A DNA stretch of 46,035 nucleotides from Bacteroidota bacterium (GCA_018333525.1 JAGXTF010000033.1:1-46035); one strand, 5' to 3'. Positions 909 through 9,580 are shown, counted from the stretch's first letter. Numbers and translations: made by a program. The notes: generated by a model from the sequence alone, not told the origin.

Positions 909-1376
909 TTACTTAGTAGCATTTTCTTTTATTCTTTTAATTTTTGTGTATTGAAATACCCTTGCTTTTTCTATTTGTTCTTCCATTTGAAATGTTGGGT
1001 GTGGATAATCATCCTTCACATAGAATTTACCTGTTACTGTAATTTGTTCCTTAAAAACATCAAATGTGGTGTCGCTTGCGGGATTGTACAATTCAGGTGA
1101 TGCAGGTTCAATAAAGATATGGTGCTTTGAAAAGCCGGAGTCCTTATATTTCCTGACATCCTCAAAGGATATCCAATTGGCACAGGCGCATCCCCAAAGC
1201 GTATATTGCAGTTTTAGAATTTTCTCTACATTCTCCAAGGTATTCGAGGAATCTGAAATCACTTTTCGGTATATTGCAATTGGTGACGTATTGGTTTTTG
1301 TGGAATTGCTTTGCCGTGGAAATGGTTTGGTGCAAGTAAATCCAGAAAATAGTATGATTATCAATACGTATTTCAT
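909..1376 (-). CDS. Small putative lipoprotein with Cys-x-Cys motif
   Basis: A 155-residue protein. The N-terminus is a short hydrophobic signal ending at a Cys near residue 15 (FSGFTC), which reads as a lipobox-like lipoprotein signal. A central segment LWGCACANW carries a conserved-looking CxC pair flanked by aromatic residues. The rest is polar, with no recognised domain, and the C-terminus is Lys-rich. The ATG at 1376 is set by the signal peptide and sits inside GTTAAATG, close to what would be a cassette core site for the repeat at 1381-1594. It may be the last unit of the minus-strand lipoprotein array, but no palindrome like the others follows its stop. Function unknown. Confidence 0.65.
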   Translation of the reverse strand: MKYVLIIILFSGFTCTKPFPRQSNSTKTNTSPIAIYRKVISDSSNTLENVEKILKLQYTLWGCACANWISFEDVRKYKDSGFSKHHIFIEPASPELYNPASDTTFDVFKEQITVTGKFYVKDDYPHPTFQMEEQIEKARVFQYTKIKRIKENATK

Positions 1377-1380
1377 TTAA

Positions 1381-1594
1381 CGTATGAATTATTTTTTTTA
1401 TTAATGATTAAAACGGGGCATAATTTCTTGGGAACTTCCAATGAGATGAATTTCTTGGTGCGTGTATTTTAACACTAATATCTTTCGAAGAGCGAGCCCT
1501 GAGCGAAGTCGAAGGGCTGAACTTTCAGCCAGCACTTGACATGCTACGAAGCGCGAAACCCTATATATTTTGTAGGTGCTGAATGTGTTAATGC
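1381..1594 (-). repeat. attC-like imperfect palindrome C
   Basis: This intergenic segment is related to the one at 2251-2421. Both share CTAATATCTT, a GAGCC..TGAGCG..GTCGAA..GGCT block, ACTTTCA, CGAAAC and TTTTG.GTAGGTGCTG in the same order. It contains a 7-bp-arm hairpin (GGCTGAA 1515-1521 / TTCAGCC 1524-1530). Its upper end GTTAATGC (1587-1594) is nearly complementary to GCATTATC at 2251-2258 on the far side of the neighbouring gene (7 of 8). This is the pairing expected of the two core sites of one integron cassette. An ORF covering part of the segment in the minus frame is not coding. Confidence 0.5.
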
Positions 1595-2253
1595 TATTTG
1601 TCTTCAATGAGTATTTTGTTTTTTGGAACAGAAAATAATTTATTATCAATTTGTTGTCTTGATATTGTGGTTGCTGTAACGGTTGCTATAAAGTCTGGGT
1701 ACTCAATTTTATATTTCAAATAGACTGCTTTCATATTTTGAGTATTTAAATTTTTATTGAATGCTGTAAAGTTCCTGTGCCACTCAGGATTTATTCTCAA
1801 AGTGTCTGAGTTAAAATAAAAACTAACGGTTTTGTTGGGGTAGTAAGTCACAAGTTCATCACAGTCAATGCCAAGTATCTTTTCTTTTTTAGGATTAATT
1901 TCAAATTTTAACATTTTTTGCCCTGGCCTTCCGCAGTCATACCAATATAATGTGTCACTTTGATTTTTCCTTACATATGTTTTATTGTCTTGCTTAAGGT
2001 AAAGCTGCTCCAACATTGTACCACCGTCATACAATTCCAAATAATTTCCCTCTTTAAAATATAGGTTTGCAGCCTTTCCAAATGCTTTGTCAAGGTATGC
2101 TGAGTCCACTTTGTTAGTTTTAATAACGAACTCGTTTTTATACATTATTTTTCCTTCAAAATATTCTTTATCATTAGTTTTCTGTGTGGAAGAACAGGCT
2201 ACAATGACAAGAAGTCCAAATAGTATTGTAGTAGTTTTCTTTTTCGTGTGCAT
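1594..2253 (-). CDS. Putative lipoprotein, cassette-like unit A
   Basis: A 219-residue protein starting at the ATG at 2253, which gives MHTKKK followed by a hydrophobic stretch and a lipobox ending VIVACSS, a standard lipoprotein signal. A TTG nine codons upstream would extend it but places the signal internally. The body is rich in Lys, Tyr and Asp with several beta-strand-like segments, including ILGIDCDELVTYYPN. That layout resembles small periplasmic GLPGLI/DUF4412-type lipoproteins of Bacteroidota, but the similarity is too weak to assign. The stop codon overlaps the core site of palindrome C by one base and the start codon lies inside the core site of palindrome B. The gene therefore fills the unit wall to wall, as in a compact gene cassette. 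Confidence 0.7.
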   Translation of the reverse strand: MHTKKKTTTILFGLLVIVACSSTQKTNDKEYFEGKIMYKNEFVIKTNKVDSAYLDKAFGKAANLYFKEGNYLELYDGGTMLEQLYLKQDNKTYVRKNQSDTLYWYDCGRPGQKMLKFEINPKKEKILGIDCDELVTYYPNKTVSFYFNSDTLRINPEWHRNFTAFNKNLNTQNMKAVYLKYKIEYPDFIATVTATTISRQQIDNKLFSVPKNKILIEDK

Positions 2254-2421
2254 TATCTGTATCGGTTTGTAGGCTTGCAATGGTTGGAGTTTTCAATTCT
2301 AATATCTTCTATCTTTCGGATAATGAGCCTTGAGCGGTGTCGAAAGGCTATACTTTCAATAACCACAAAACTGTCTTTGGAACACGAAACTCCGCCTTTT
2401 GGGTAGGTGCTGTTATAGCCG
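2251..2421 (-). repeat. attC-like imperfect palindrome B
   Basis: The intergenic segment separates units A and B. It contains paired blocks such as GGAGTTTT and AAACTCC and shares long stretches with palindrome C. The lower-coordinate side (CGGTTTGTAGGCTTGCAATGG) matches the corresponding side of palindrome A (CGGTTTGCAGATTTGCGATGG). The upper end GTTATAGCCG (2412-2421) is perfectly complementary over 10 bp to CGGCTATAAC at 3038-3047, on the other side of gene unit B. That is the relation between the core and inverse-core sites of one cassette. Confidence 0.55.
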
Positions 2422-2477
2422 GTTGTTCTGTTTCTTGTCTTATTTGTCAGTGAATAAATTCTCATTTATGTCAGGAA

Positions 2478-2978
2478 TTACTTGTCTATTTGGATTGATT
2501 CATCTTTAGTAATAGTCTTTCCTTTATGAATAAAGGATAATTTGTCTATTTTTACATTCGGGTCATTTTCGTGACAACCTTTAATTTTCTCCTGTGACTT
2601 TTTTATTTCAATATTCAAAAGGGTGTCTTTTCCAGTATACCAATCAAATATGAGAGTGCAATTGTCAAAATAGCTGTCATAACGACCAAACTGACTTTGA
2701 GCTTTGCTGGATTCCCTGTCAGTAATAATTTCATTTGTCGAACGAGCATAATTTGCCCAGAGAATGTCTCTCAAAAGGAAAGTGTCACCTACACTTGTAT
2801 TAGAATTGTCTATTCTGTACACTAAAATGTTGTCAATTTCCGAAATACTAAAACCATTGAATTGAATAGGAATTTGCACAATTTCACCGATTCTCAGGCT
2901 TTCATTGCAAGGTTTTTCACATCCACTAATGGCAATAACCAAAAGAAGTGAATAAAGTGATTTAAATATTTTTCTCAT
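2478..2978 (-). CDS. Putative lipoprotein, cassette-like unit B
   Basis: A 166-residue protein. The ATG at 2978 gives MRKIFKSLYSLLLVIAISGC, a clean lipoprotein signal with lipobox AISGC; an upstream TTG would add eight charged residues before it and is unlikely. The mature part has a second Cys just after the lipidated one (CEKPC), then a Cys near the middle and one near the end. No domain is recognised. It is the only gene between palindromes B and A, transcribed in the same direction as its neighbours. The closed unit from 2412 to 3047 is bounded by a perfect 10-bp inverted repeat, supporting movement as a single-gene cassette. Function unknown; an envelope or secreted role is inferred from the signal. 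Confidence 0.7.
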   Translation of the reverse strand: MRKIFKSLYSLLLVIAISGCEKPCNESLRIGEIVQIPIQFNGFSISEIDNILVYRIDNSNTSVGDTFLLRDILWANYARSTNEIITDRESSKAQSQFGRYDSYFDNCTLIFDWYTGKDTLLNIEIKKSQEKIKGCHENDPNVKIDKLSFIHKGKTITKDESIQIDK

Positions 2979-3037
2979 ATGTATTTTGTTTTTTGTTCTC
3001 AATGTGAGGTTAATGAATTTTACTGTCTTTTCACAAT

Positions 3038-3155
3038 CGGCTATAACGGTTTGCAGATTTGCGATGGGCGGGCTTTTTAGAACAAATGTTCATTCGGAGC
3101 ACTGAACTTCCGATCAGCACAAAACCCCGCCTATTGCAAATGTGCTGTTAGCGGT
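3038..3155 (-). repeat. attC-like imperfect palindrome A
   Basis: The best-preserved member of the set. The outer arms TTTGCGATGGGCGGG (3058-3072) and the complement of CCCCGCCTATTGCAAA (3124-3139) pair at 13 of 15 positions. Inner dyads (GAACAAATGTTC, TCGGA/CCGA) give an attC-like long hairpin with mismatches. The lower end CGGCTATAAC pairs with the end of unit B, and the upper end GTTAGCGGT (3147-3155) pairs perfectly with ACCGCTAAC at 3886-3894, the far end of unit C. The ends keep the AAC and GTT of integron core sites but not the full RYYYAAC/GTTRRRY consensus. Confidence 0.6.
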
Positions 3156-3166
3156 TCGTGCTTCTG

Positions 3167-3841
3167 TCATACAAGTTCTATTTGTTGTAAAAATGCTCCT
3201 CTCCATTTTTCTCTGTCAATTATTTGTTTAACTCTGTCTGAAATGATTATTGGTCTATTAGCACTGCCACCACTCCCAAAATAATAATCCAATCTTACAA
3301 TGTCGGTTTTATTGTCAAGAGCCTCTCCCTTTAATTTTATGCAATTGTCGACTTGCGGAAAGTTGAACTTTGTTTGTCCGCAAAATGGTCCTTCTGCAAG
3401 TTTGCTTTTATTGGCTTGTAAAAATTTAAACATGCTTTTGTCTTTAGGACGTTCGCAAACTTCAGATTTCAAATTATCGGTTAAAAGTCCATTGGAAAGC
3501 AAACTGTCAACTCGTAATTGATACAGTCCGCCTATAGGAAGTCCAGTTTTATTAATTACTGGTTGCGAAAATTCAATTCCTGTAATTCCTTCTTGTTCAA
3601 AAACATCTTTAACGCTTTGTCTAACAAAAACCTGGTCAAAGACCCAATTTAGTCCTAAGAACTGGCTGTGCTGTGCTTTCGGTTCACTCCGAAATCTGAA
3701 TTCGTCTTTTTGTCTAAGTCCAATATTACAAGTCAAACAAGCATTTGAACTGTCATAGGTTTTATTTATGTAGCCAAAATCATTTTCTGGTTGGGGATAC
3801 CCAAATTGTCCAGTCGTTATATGATACCAATTTGTCGTCAC
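3167..3841 (-). CDS. Hypothetical soluble protein, cassette-like unit C
   Basis: A 224-residue protein starting with GTG at 3841; an in-frame stop lies seven codons upstream, so no longer start is possible. It has no signal peptide or membrane segment. A CxxC pair occurs near residues 36-39 (CLTCNIG), followed by LRQKDEFRFRSEPK and a Trp-Val-Phe segment (GLNWVFDQVFV). This layout, CxxC then an F-R-x-x-x-x-P-K segment, is reminiscent of small immunity-protein-like families in Bacteroidota, but I cannot assign it to one. Two more Cys follow in the C-terminal half. The gene sits alone in the unit 3147-3894, which is bounded by a perfect 9-bp inverted repeat, so it is likely a mobile cassette gene. 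Confidence 0.65.
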   Translation of the reverse strand: MTTNWYHITTGQFGYPQPENDFGYINKTYDSSNACLTCNIGLRQKDEFRFRSEPKAQHSQFLGLNWVFDQVFVRQSVKDVFEQEGITGIEFSQPVINKTGLPIGGLYQLRVDSLLSNGLLTDNLKSEVCERPKDKSMFKFLQANKSKLAEGPFCGQTKFNFPQVDNCIKLKGEALDNKTDIVRLDYYFGSGGSANRPIIISDRVKQIIDREKWRGAFLQQIELV

Positions 3842-3885
3842 TTTATCGTTTGGTGTTTAATGTGTTGAGTTTTCGTCATAGTATG

Positions 3886-3960
3886 ACCGCTAACGTCCTT
3901 ATATGGATGAAAAAACCATCCCAATGCACCCATTTTGCGTACTATAAGGATGACTTCTAT
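3886..3960 (-). repeat. Upstream boundary palindrome D of the cassette-like array
   Basis: It begins with ACCGCTAAC (3886-3894), complementary to the other end of unit C. It then forms an imperfect foldback between GTCCTTATA (3895-3903) and TATAAGGATGAC (3943-3954), with an inner GGATG/CATCC hairpin. Its sequence differs from palindromes A-C, so it could be a diverged attC or an attachment site at the array end. From 3961 to 4140 there is no coding signal. Confidence 0.4.
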
Positions 3961-4271: not shown

Positions 4272-4634
4272 ATGAAAAACATGAGAAATTCAGTTCAGAT
4301 CATCGGAAACGTAGGTAACACTCCAGAAGTACGTGAGTTCCAGGGCGGTAAAATTGCAGCGCGTTTTAGCGTTGCCACCCACGAGAGTTTTAAAAATTCA
4401 AAAGGAGAAAAAGTACAAAACACCCAGTGGCATCAAGTAGTGGCCTGGGGCAGCATGGCGGGCTTTATTCAAAAACACGTGACCAAAGGCAGCAGCATTG
4501 CTTTGGAAGGCAAGCTCTCCAGCAGATCCTATCAGGATACCGATGGCAAAAAACACACAGTTACAGAAATTGTGGCGGCGGAGCTGATGTTCACCGGAAA
4601 CAAAAACAAACGCACTGTGGAGGCAACACAATAA
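4272..4634 (+). CDS. ssb: Single-stranded DNA-binding protein, tail-less
   Basis: A 120-residue OB-fold protein starting MKNMRNSVQIIGNVG. The family core is present: RNSVQIIGNVGNTPEVRE at the N-terminus, ARFSVATHES, the WHQVVAWG strand near residues 53-60, and the ALEGKL...Y.D..G strand pair. SSBs coat single-stranded DNA in replication and repair as tetramers. The protein ends just after the OB fold (KRTVEATQ) and lacks the long linker and acidic DDDxPF-like tip that recruits partner proteins. It is therefore probably an accessory SSB, with the essential one elsewhere. The start is the first of two Mets in MKNM. It is followed 52 bp later by a close paralogue in the same direction. Confidence 0.93.
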   Translation: MKNMRNSVQIIGNVGNTPEVREFQGGKIAARFSVATHESFKNSKGEKVQNTQWHQVVAWGSMAGFIQKHVTKGSSIALEGKLSSRSYQDTDGKKHTVTEIVAAELMFTGNKNKRTVEATQ

Positions 4635-4686
4635 ATAAGTTCAAAAAAAATATACAATCAGTTAAATTAAATCATTAAAAATTATT

Positions 4687-5025
4687 ATGAAAAATCTGAG
4701 AAATTCTGTTCAAATCATCGGTTATGTTGGAAATGCACCTGAAGTGCGCGAATTAAATGGCGGAAAAATGATGGCACGTTTTAGTGTAGCCACCCATGAA
4801 TTCTACAAAAATGCCGCCGGCGAAAAAGTGGAAAATACTACCTGGCACAACTTTGTTGCCTGGGGAACAACAGCGAAATATATCAGTCAGTATGTCGCCA
4901 AGGGGCGTGAGATTGCTGTGGAGGGGAAGTTGACAAACCGCAGCTACGAGGACAAGAATGGCGAGAAGCGCAATGTGACGGAGATTGAAGTGAATAACGT
5001 GCTGCTTCTGGGAAAAAAAGACTGA
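4687..5025 (+). CDS. ssb: Second tandem single-stranded DNA-binding protein
   Basis: A 112-residue paralogue of the preceding gene; the starts (MKNLRNSVQIIGYVGN) are nearly identical and the two proteins align without gaps through most of the OB fold (ARFSVATHEFYKNAAGEKV; W-H-x-x-VAWG). It also lacks the acidic C-terminal tip, ending LLLGKKD. The pair looks like a recent tandem duplication. A Rho-independent terminator lies 24 bp after the stop, so the two genes probably form one transcript. In family terms it binds ssDNA; the lack of a protein-interaction tail suggests a structural or competence/phage-type accessory role, which is inference. Confidence 0.93.
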   Translation: MKNLRNSVQIIGYVGNAPEVRELNGGKMMARFSVATHEFYKNAAGEKVENTTWHNFVAWGTTAKYISQYVAKGREIAVEGKLTNRSYEDKNGEKRNVTEIEVNNVLLLGKKD

Positions 5026-8227: not shown

Positions 8228-9580
8228 CTACATCACCTGCACAAAGGTTCCTTTTCGCCATTCATACCATTTGCCACCGATGAGTTCCCTTTGACCGGAT
8301 TTGATATTTTTTATATTAGAAATTTCTTTGTCCAGGACAAATAATCTTCCTCCTGTTTTTTTCACCAGTTCAATATAATCCGGATTTACCCGGTCATATA
8401 CCCCGCAAACCATCACGGAAACCGGTATTTTAATTCTGTCTATTAATGCAATATCCTTGATTGGTGCCTGATTATCTGCAACCAATAAAATGGTATCTGT
8501 ATCCGGCCAGTTGGCGATAGTTTTTAATACCGCTTCGAGATCATTTTCCGGAATATCGCCACCCAAACCTTTGTTCATGGTGAATTTCATCCTGGAAAAA
8601 ACGGAATCAAAATTTCCTCCGGATGCGAAATAAATTCCACCTGTACTTCCTGTTTTCTTCAGCATATCCGGAGTGCCATCGCCATCATTAAAAAATGCAA
8701 ATCGGCCTTGTTTCAAAACTTCTGGACTGTATTTCAACCACAACATAATTTGGGTGGAAAATGGACCCATACTTCCAGTAACGTCAGTAACTACGGCCAT
8801 CTTCGTGCTCCATTTGCGTTTGGTTAATGTGTTGAATTCATCGGTTCCAATAAAAGCCGATGTGTCAAATTTCCCAATTCGCATCCAATAACCATTCGTT
8901 TTTTTCTTAATTGTGGAATCCCATTGCACTTTGTATTCAGGCTCCCGTTGCCAGATTCCGGAGGATGAAAATTTTTCTCCGGCCTTTTTCTTTTTATCGC
9001 TTTTTGGAATATAAAATCCGGTTTCAACTTTTCTTTTTTTGATTTTATAATCAATTTTTTCGGGCACCCAGATTAAGGTGTCGCTGTAAGAATCCACAAT
9101 TTTAGAAATAAAACTGAGTTCTTTTTTTAACAAATCGGGTGGGGGTAAATTCTTTAAATAAATTACGAATCCGTGAAAGCAGGTTGTCGCCCTTTCTCTG
9201 GTGGTGGCTTCTCTTTGCTCCAACACTTTCCATTCAATGTCTTTTAAATCGAATAAAACGGGATATGTTTTTTTTAATTCTTCAAAGCGATGGTAATTTA
9301 ATTTTGGCTGGTTGAAAGTATCCACTTCCCTAAAGCGGGTATACACCAAATGAACCCCGTAAATCCATTCGTTCCCTGGGATTTTTTTTAATTGGGAAAT
9401 ATCCAAAAAATTCGATTGTGAAAATGGCATGGGGAGAAAAACAGCGATGGTAGTATCCACCTTTTGTGTACCAATTCCAATCGGTTTCAGCTTCATCAAA
9501 TCATCCGTTTTCCAATACTGTGCGTGCAGCGATTGAAATAAAAAAATAGAGAACAGTCCATATTTAAAAAACAGGTGCAA
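8228..9580 (-). CDS. Secreted von Willebrand factor A-like protein
   Basis: A 450-residue exported protein. The only usable start is TTG at 9580: an in-frame stop lies five codons upstream, and this start gives a complete signal peptide (LFFKYGLFSIFLFQSLHAQ). The N-terminal half is lysine-rich and unassigned. The C-terminal half contains a VWA-like fold: MAVVTDVTGSMGPF near residue 265 matches the MIDAS motif DxTGSM (usually DxSGS), LLVADNQAP forms the later strand with a conserved Asp, and IPVSVMVCGV is the last core strand. Such domains bind ligands through a metal ion. Neighbours (bshB1 behind it, the flavoenzyme ahead) do not explain its role. Confidence 0.75.
   Translation of the reverse strand: MHLFFKYGLFSIFLFQSLHAQYWKTDDLMKLKPIGIGTQKVDTTIAVFLPMPFSQSNFLDISQLKKIPGNEWIYGVHLVYTRFREVDTFNQPKLNYHRFEELKKTYPVLFDLKDIEWKVLEQREATTRERATTCFHGFVIYLKNLPPPDLLKKELSFISKIVDSYSDTLIWVPEKIDYKIKKRKVETGFYIPKSDKKKKAGEKFSSSGIWQREPEYKVQWDSTIKKKTNGYWMRIGKFDTSAFIGTDEFNTLTKRKWSTKMAVVTDVTGSMGPFSTQIMLWLKYSPEVLKQGRFAFFNDGDGTPDMLKKTGSTGGIYFASGGNFDSVFSRMKFTMNKGLGGDIPENDLEAVLKTIANWPDTDTILLVADNQAPIKDIALIDRIKIPVSVMVCGVYDRVNPDYIELVKKTGGRLFVLDKEISNIKNIKSGQRELIGGKWYEWRKGTFVQVM

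Follow-up and report, generated by a model that had tools for sequence, protein, structure and literature searches.

A small cluster of attC-like sites without an integrase in a Bacteroidota contig, probably left by a phylum-wide integron-like system

Introduction

Where single genes on one strand alternate with imperfect palindromes and no integrase gene is nearby, do the palindromes delimit integron cassettes? We address this question for a 46,035-nt stretch of DNA (GCA_018333525.1, JAGXTF010000033.1; here the window), which is contig C33 of a 3.7-Mb genome related to Bacteroidota, assembled in 118 contigs and ~98% complete. An initial annotation of the window had proposed that three genes, A, B and C, form an attC-like cassette array without an integrase, perhaps of a divergent, undescribed family, and as a whole this reading survived every test we ran. 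The IntI-specific domain of the integrase serves both to define integrons and to look for them, and in classical integrons the integrase can be lost while the arrays are left, giving a cluster of attC sites lacking integron-integrase (CALIN, in the terminology of IntegronFinder). We find that the genome contains further arrays and no integrase of the kind that accompanies such arrays in its relatives, and for this reason the window is very probably best described as a small, partly decayed CALIN-like attC cluster, with clear cassettes C and B and probably A, left by a Bacteroidota-wide integron system.

Results

Cassette ends are complementary across genes B and C

The initial annotation placed most weight on short ends that pair across each gene, and for two of the three genes we recover this pairing: GTTATAGCCG (2412-2421) is complementary to CGGCTATAAC (3038-3047) around B, and GTTAGCGGT (3147-3155) to ACCGCTAAC (3886-3894) around C. 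The core deviates at 1-2 positions from RYYYAAC/GTTRRRY, as had been noted, and a match of seven free bases after the constant GTT is expected by chance about once in 16,000. Cassette B (2263-3046, minus strand) has an R' box at 3038-3047 that pairs with R'' at 2412-2421 over 10 bp, is mismatched at position 11 and resumes pairing beyond the mismatch for 4 bp (GTTATAGCCGATTGT versus GTTATAGCCGGTTGT), which is the signature of the family described below. Cassette C (3047-3893, minus strand) starts at the TT of its own R' (3886-3894, GTTAGCGGT on the minus strand), spans gene C and ends with the G of the following R' (3047); its complementary ends form an arm of 9 bp, beyond which the mismatch is shifted, like other pairs of the family.

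We then compared R' at the start of a cassette with R'' at its end, using neighbouring site pairs from three data sets. In the first (23 pairs), positions 1-10 match, position 11 is mismatched and positions 12-15 match, with 0 of 10000 shuffles as good; the same pattern is found in the second (25 pairs, 0/10000) and in the third, 55 pairs from named Bacteroidota (0/5000). Position 11 matches in 0 of 48 pairs from the first two sets and in ~2% of the 55, and is nearly always A at the cassette start and C (G in the complement) at its end. The bottom strand has a T-G wobble here, which could let it pair along the whole arm, and when circle junctions are rebuilt in silico, the bottom strand has the more stable fold in 74 of 82 (p = 1.6e-14). 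Across the arrays examined, a Watson-Crick pair hardly ever occurs at position 11 of the top strand. The two R boxes of a single site in a linear array share only GTT(A), as expected if they come from different cassettes.

A Vibrio superintegron, analysed as a control, has arms of 10-11 bp and a second block at chance level. The 9-10 bp arms, which we had considered a peculiarity of the family, were therefore dropped as such: arm length is canonical, and only the mismatch together with the 4-bp block marks the Bacteroidota family.

The hairpins are covarying attC-like sites that recur across the phylum

A plain scan for AAC..GTT duplexes returned 20 chance sites per 6 kb on window-like sequence, too noisy to be useful, and covariance models were adopted instead. 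In an alignment of nine sites, 13 of 21 pairs are changed on both sides, a value reached in 0 of 500 shuffles. The site between C and B (3038-3156, minus strand) consists of R'' (3147-3155), a covarying L''/L' stem and R' (3038-3047), and its palindrome folds strongly. It scores 106.7 bits with our first model, R1, of whose training set it is a member; because of this we built a second model, R2, from 64 sites of other genomes only, with no sequence of this genome. Among these training sites, 16 of 17 stem pairs covary, and 97.9% are paired versus 71.6% after shuffling. R2 recovers site 3038-3156 with 93.3 bits (E = 1.7e-19) and the site after B (2254-2421, minus strand) with 28.7 bits (E = 2.6e-4), the latter lying outside the training set of R1 as well (32.6 bits). 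This second site is degenerate, with an intact R'', an R' altered to GATACAG and a long loop. The family thus shows the features of attC, i.e., folded hairpins whose stems covary, R and L boxes and an AAC/GTT core; Rfam returned no attC or other relevant match.

Further copies, which the initial annotation had suggested looking for, are abundant. R1 finds at least 24 sites on seven contigs of the same genome, sites in 75 of 108 genomes of the order, and sites in 150 of 392 genomes of a phylum sample (~38%, E 1e-5); on a 100-kb control that includes the XerC and XerD loci of this genome and the Vibrio superintegron it gives 0 matches. Conservation of the gene order A-B-C, which would have spoken for ordinary synteny, was not seen across relatives. 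Pattern and DNA searches of the genome likewise reveal single genes split by hairpins on contigs C1, C114, C106 and C16, with five strong sites within 3.2 kb on C114. Arrays of the same system, each unidirectional, lie at L065, L066, L064, L067 and L157 (on C1, C114, C106, C16 and C75, respectively) and on C93. The two ends of C114 (L066, 1-3213) repeat each other around CATTAGCTTATAAATCGTAACTC, and this contig therefore probably represents a broken or collapsed stretch of a longer array.

Intact arrays adjoin a tyrosine recombinase that lacks the IntI insertion

The view that no integrase accompanies the window holds for the whole genome, which encodes XerC, XerD and other recombinases, and in which we find no canonical IntI over cut-off and no member of the family described here. 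It does not hold for the system, since its integrase exists in relatives, though not as a canonical IntI. A partial TIGR02249 match on contig C46 was rejected as an integrase of this genome; the contig (L015), on which a fragment of 33 residues matches the integron integrase profile, resembles gammaproteobacterial DNA in composition and gene content and is probably a contaminant. A phage-type recombinase on C107 (L003) may share that origin.

Many genomes of the order encode tyrosine recombinases of ~350-370 residues that match both ends of TIGR02249 and skip its middle. These proteins pass NF040815 and fail TIGR02249 (208-212 bits versus a cut-off of 265). Compared with VchIntIA (2A3V), they have ~20 residues where IntI has ~60, and the spacing from KG..R to HxLRH is 65-66 residues in the Bacteroidota family, 107-108 in IntI and 67-73 in Xer/XerA, so that the family is ~42 residues shorter than IntI here. 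The IntI-specific additional domain is thus missing, and for this reason we do not class the system as an IntI integron. A quick tree recovers the family as one clade, separate from XerC/XerD and provisionally sister to IntI (Shimodaira-Hasegawa-like approximate likelihood ratio test, 88).

Among 20 recombinase loci of relatives, 15 are followed downstream by co-directional sites. Scanning contigs for the family adds 80 loci, many in named Bacteroidota, of which 31 have sites, with 84 of 91 matches downstream on the same strand. Flavobacterium difficile (L220) carries 11 sites downstream of its recombinase, and arrays in this position are also found in named Flavobacterium, Algoriphagus and Pedobacter genomes. 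With admittedly crude cut-offs for both elements, arrays occur in 84 of 119 recombinase-positive genomes (E ≤ 1e-65) versus 66 of 273 without it (Fisher p = 6e-18), and in 31 of 35 genomes of a strict recombinase set (Fisher p = 1.6e-10).

These data bear on two other origins for the arrays. They could be those of an ordinary IntI integron, the IntI gene having been missed or lying on an unassembled contig, an idea to which the incomplete, 118-contig assembly, the resemblance of attC architecture and ~10-bp arms to the Vibrio superintegron, and the naming of Bacteroidota among integron phyla (PMC8618304) lend some appeal. Yet TIGR02249 exceeds its cut-off in 0 of 108 genomes of the order though 75 carry sites, the arrays adjoin the insertion-less recombinase instead, and R1 is blind to Vibrio attC sites; we regard this explanation as largely refuted and very unlikely. 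XerC and XerD, present in every genome here including our own, might instead move the cassettes, with the neighbouring recombinase incidental, and at the cut-off used the special recombinase is indeed missing from 66 of 150 array-positive genomes. We consider this equally improbable, given that the special recombinase has arrays beside it on its own strand, with attI ~100 nt past its stop, that no sites surround the XerC/XerD loci of this genome, that presence and absence of recombinase and arrays are associated, and that loss of an integrase from persisting arrays is already known from CALIN.

Several loci of the family stand apart. One relative has a second family recombinase directly before an array and pointing away from it, the usual IntI orientation (L121, ~8976-9506, minus strand); at L123 and L124, one relative carries the recombinase twice, the copies being 99% identical over 1.2 kb and each followed by its own, different array. 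Outside the phylum, a family recombinase with one site and an attI-like junction is found in Halonatronum saccharophilum (Bacillota; L213), and another in a metagenome-assembled genome named Desulfurellales (L236), reflecting either transfer beyond Bacteroidota or mislabelled contigs of metagenome-assembled genomes.

Candidate attI sites and exchange of whole cassettes

We searched for attI as the partner of R'' in the first attC past the recombinase. In 28 of 39 loci an attI-like partner is found no more than 170 nt from the recombinase stop, usually at 95-110 nt and with 10-14 of 14 positions matching, and these junctions have a common TATAnAnnA motif immediately before GTT; in relatives, therefore, an attI adjoins the integrase gene.

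Cassettes also appear to be exchanged as units. L144 and L149, from two genera, have a common 3.35-kb cassette running from the GTT of one site to the GTT of the next, in unrelated flanks, while the cassette common to L118 and L176 is first in one array and stands behind a different cassette's site in the other, with identical attC that diverges just after GTTAT. These alignments indicate the transfer of two whole cassettes between genera, with breakpoints at GTT. Cassettes of the family thus have complementary ends, are mobile as units and break at GTT; because GTT is constant, the exact cut between G and TT can only be inferred. The suggestion that the hairpins are transcription terminators or non-autonomous palindromic repeats in an ordinary gene order accounts for strong intergenic stems and is the least probable of all, as the end complementarity is cassette-specific and spans the gene (0/10000 shuffles), neighbouring sites of one array have different R boxes, common cassettes switch neighbours exactly at GTT, and gene C has no conserved homologue.

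Genes, unit A and flanks of the window

Genes A, B and C all lie on the minus strand, as annotated, and none has a Pfam or NCBIfam match over cut-off. Gene C (3167-3841) is an open frame of 224 residues with no Pfam family over cut-off and no NCBIfam match, and homologues are absent from 391 other Bacteroidota genomes (E 1e-5), a common trait of cassette genes. Gene B (2478-3002) is a 174-residue open reading frame from the TTG at 3002, begins MRTKNKIHMRK and has a lipobox-like ISGC.

Unit A (1594-2262, minus strand) contains a lipoprotein-like gene with a lipobox-like IVAC, its open reading frame (1594-2280) beginning at TTG with an in-frame ATG at ~2253, and is presumed to be a cassette whose far end has decayed. 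Here the initial annotation had to be corrected: where R' should follow the B site the sequence is GATACAG rather than GTT, the claimed 7/8 end match lies 7 nt further on, and a covariance scan with filters off gives at best 3.3 bits (E = 3.9) downstream of A. The region after A (1401-1605, minus strand) is a palindrome resembling AGCACCTA and is not recognisable as a site.

At the left array junction (3895-3960, minus strand), a small hairpin ends in ATATAAGGAC directly before GTT and bears a weak resemblance to attI. Its attI score of 2.4 is in the top 2% of GTT contexts, yet below nearly all leave-one-out scores of true attI. The flanking genes look ordinary, with an open reading frame at 909-1376 on the minus strand and, at 4272-5025 on the plus strand, a tandem pair of adjacent genes resembling single-strand-binding protein (4272-4634 and 4687-5025). 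GC-rich nested inverted repeats (GCCCGCCCGAACGGTACGGGCGGGC and neighbours) at 540-840 recur on another contig (L067, 9030-9600); they do not resemble the attC sites and may represent a different repeat family.

Discussion

Proposed mechanism and weight of the evidence

On comparative evidence, the system would work like an integron. In intact copies, a recombinase gene is followed on the same strand by attI after ~100 nt and then by the cassettes. An excised cassette circle would rebuild a full attC, the bottom strand of which could fold on itself; the recombinase would presumably bind the R and L arms of this hairpin, cut between G and TT and join the end to attI or to another attC, as in classical integrons, a scheme in which the integrase would act on the folded bottom strand. 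With no IntI insertion, the hairpin is probably recognised differently, perhaps through an N-terminal DUF5710/HARP-like domain and the extended arms.

That this domain reads folded DNA is a guess. AlphaFold models place a beta-beta-alpha-beta-beta-alpha unit before the recombinase fold, for which the best solved structural match is the SMARCAL1 HARP domain (E = 0.13). Pfam searches of 14 members give DUF5710 in six (best E = 2e-4) and HARP in two (best E = 0.009), all below curated cut-offs, and a profile search of PDB sequences ranks 4o66 third at E = 0.45, behind two unrelated chains. Some family recombinases are missing the domain.

Several points weigh against our interpretation of the window as a remnant of this system. 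All of the support is comparative, and it is from this that we infer recombination itself; the integrase is absent from the genome, so its link to the window runs only via homology of the sites; unit A is weak; and the tree contains just three IntI rows. In addition, 31 of the 119 recombinase-positive genomes of the looser set belong to subfamilies with no detected arrays, and the 66 array-positive genomes noted above carry no recombinase at E 1e-65. The arrays of this genome may be relics, or may be mobilised by an integrase that the assembly lacks or that comes from another source.

Taken further, we lean towards a phylum-wide, unrecognised integron lineage without the IntI-specific domain, in which the folded attC would be read via an N-terminal DUF5710/HARP-like domain that binds DNA structure and via extended, bubble-bearing arms. 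If so, the IntI-specific domain is not required for integron-type recombination, and the lineage offers a natural test of the role of that domain together with a new set of recombination sites. Present surveys would then overlook the cassette pool of a whole phylum, a rich reservoir of uncharacterised genes, many of them lacking known relatives, carried by bacteria common in water, soil and wastewater.

Comparison with known systems

A literature search found no description of such arrays in open-licence papers. The closest systems are the Vibrio superintegron and other sedentary chromosomal integrons with IntI, which have the same unidirectional arrays of single-gene cassettes, attC hairpins with an AAC/GTT core, ~10 bp of end complementarity, attI beside the recombinase gene and a bottom strand that folds better. 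In the Bacteroidota system, by contrast, the recombinase has no IntI-specific insertion and in most cases carries an additional domain at its N-terminus, its gene mostly points the same way as the array, and the cassette ends keep the position-11 mismatch and a further 4-bp block.

The arrays of this genome, the window included, resemble CALIN in having sites and no family integrase, and differ in that the sites belong to a separate lineage; the assignment, with two sites in the window, is by the covariance models built here rather than those of IntegronFinder. Passages of an earlier study describe an 'integron-like' subgroup of tyrosine recombinases in which the insertion is 'not fully conserved' yet 'essential for integron function' (PMC8138268), and the family recombinase passes NF040815, 'site-specific tyrosine recombinase/integron integrase'; neither those passages nor the NCBIfam entry ties insertion-less members to cassette arrays. 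A review names Bacteroidota among integron phyla without detail (PMC8618304), and IntegronFinder 2.0 reports one complete integron in Bacteroidetes, in Salinibacter, preceded by In0 only (PMC9024848). The integron of Salinibacter ruber M1 and the earlier In0 (PMC9024848) likewise place integrons in the Bacteroidetes/Chlorobi group, but these are reported to be of IntI type and come from single genomes, whereas the divergent sites described here are found in well over a third of the genomes sampled.

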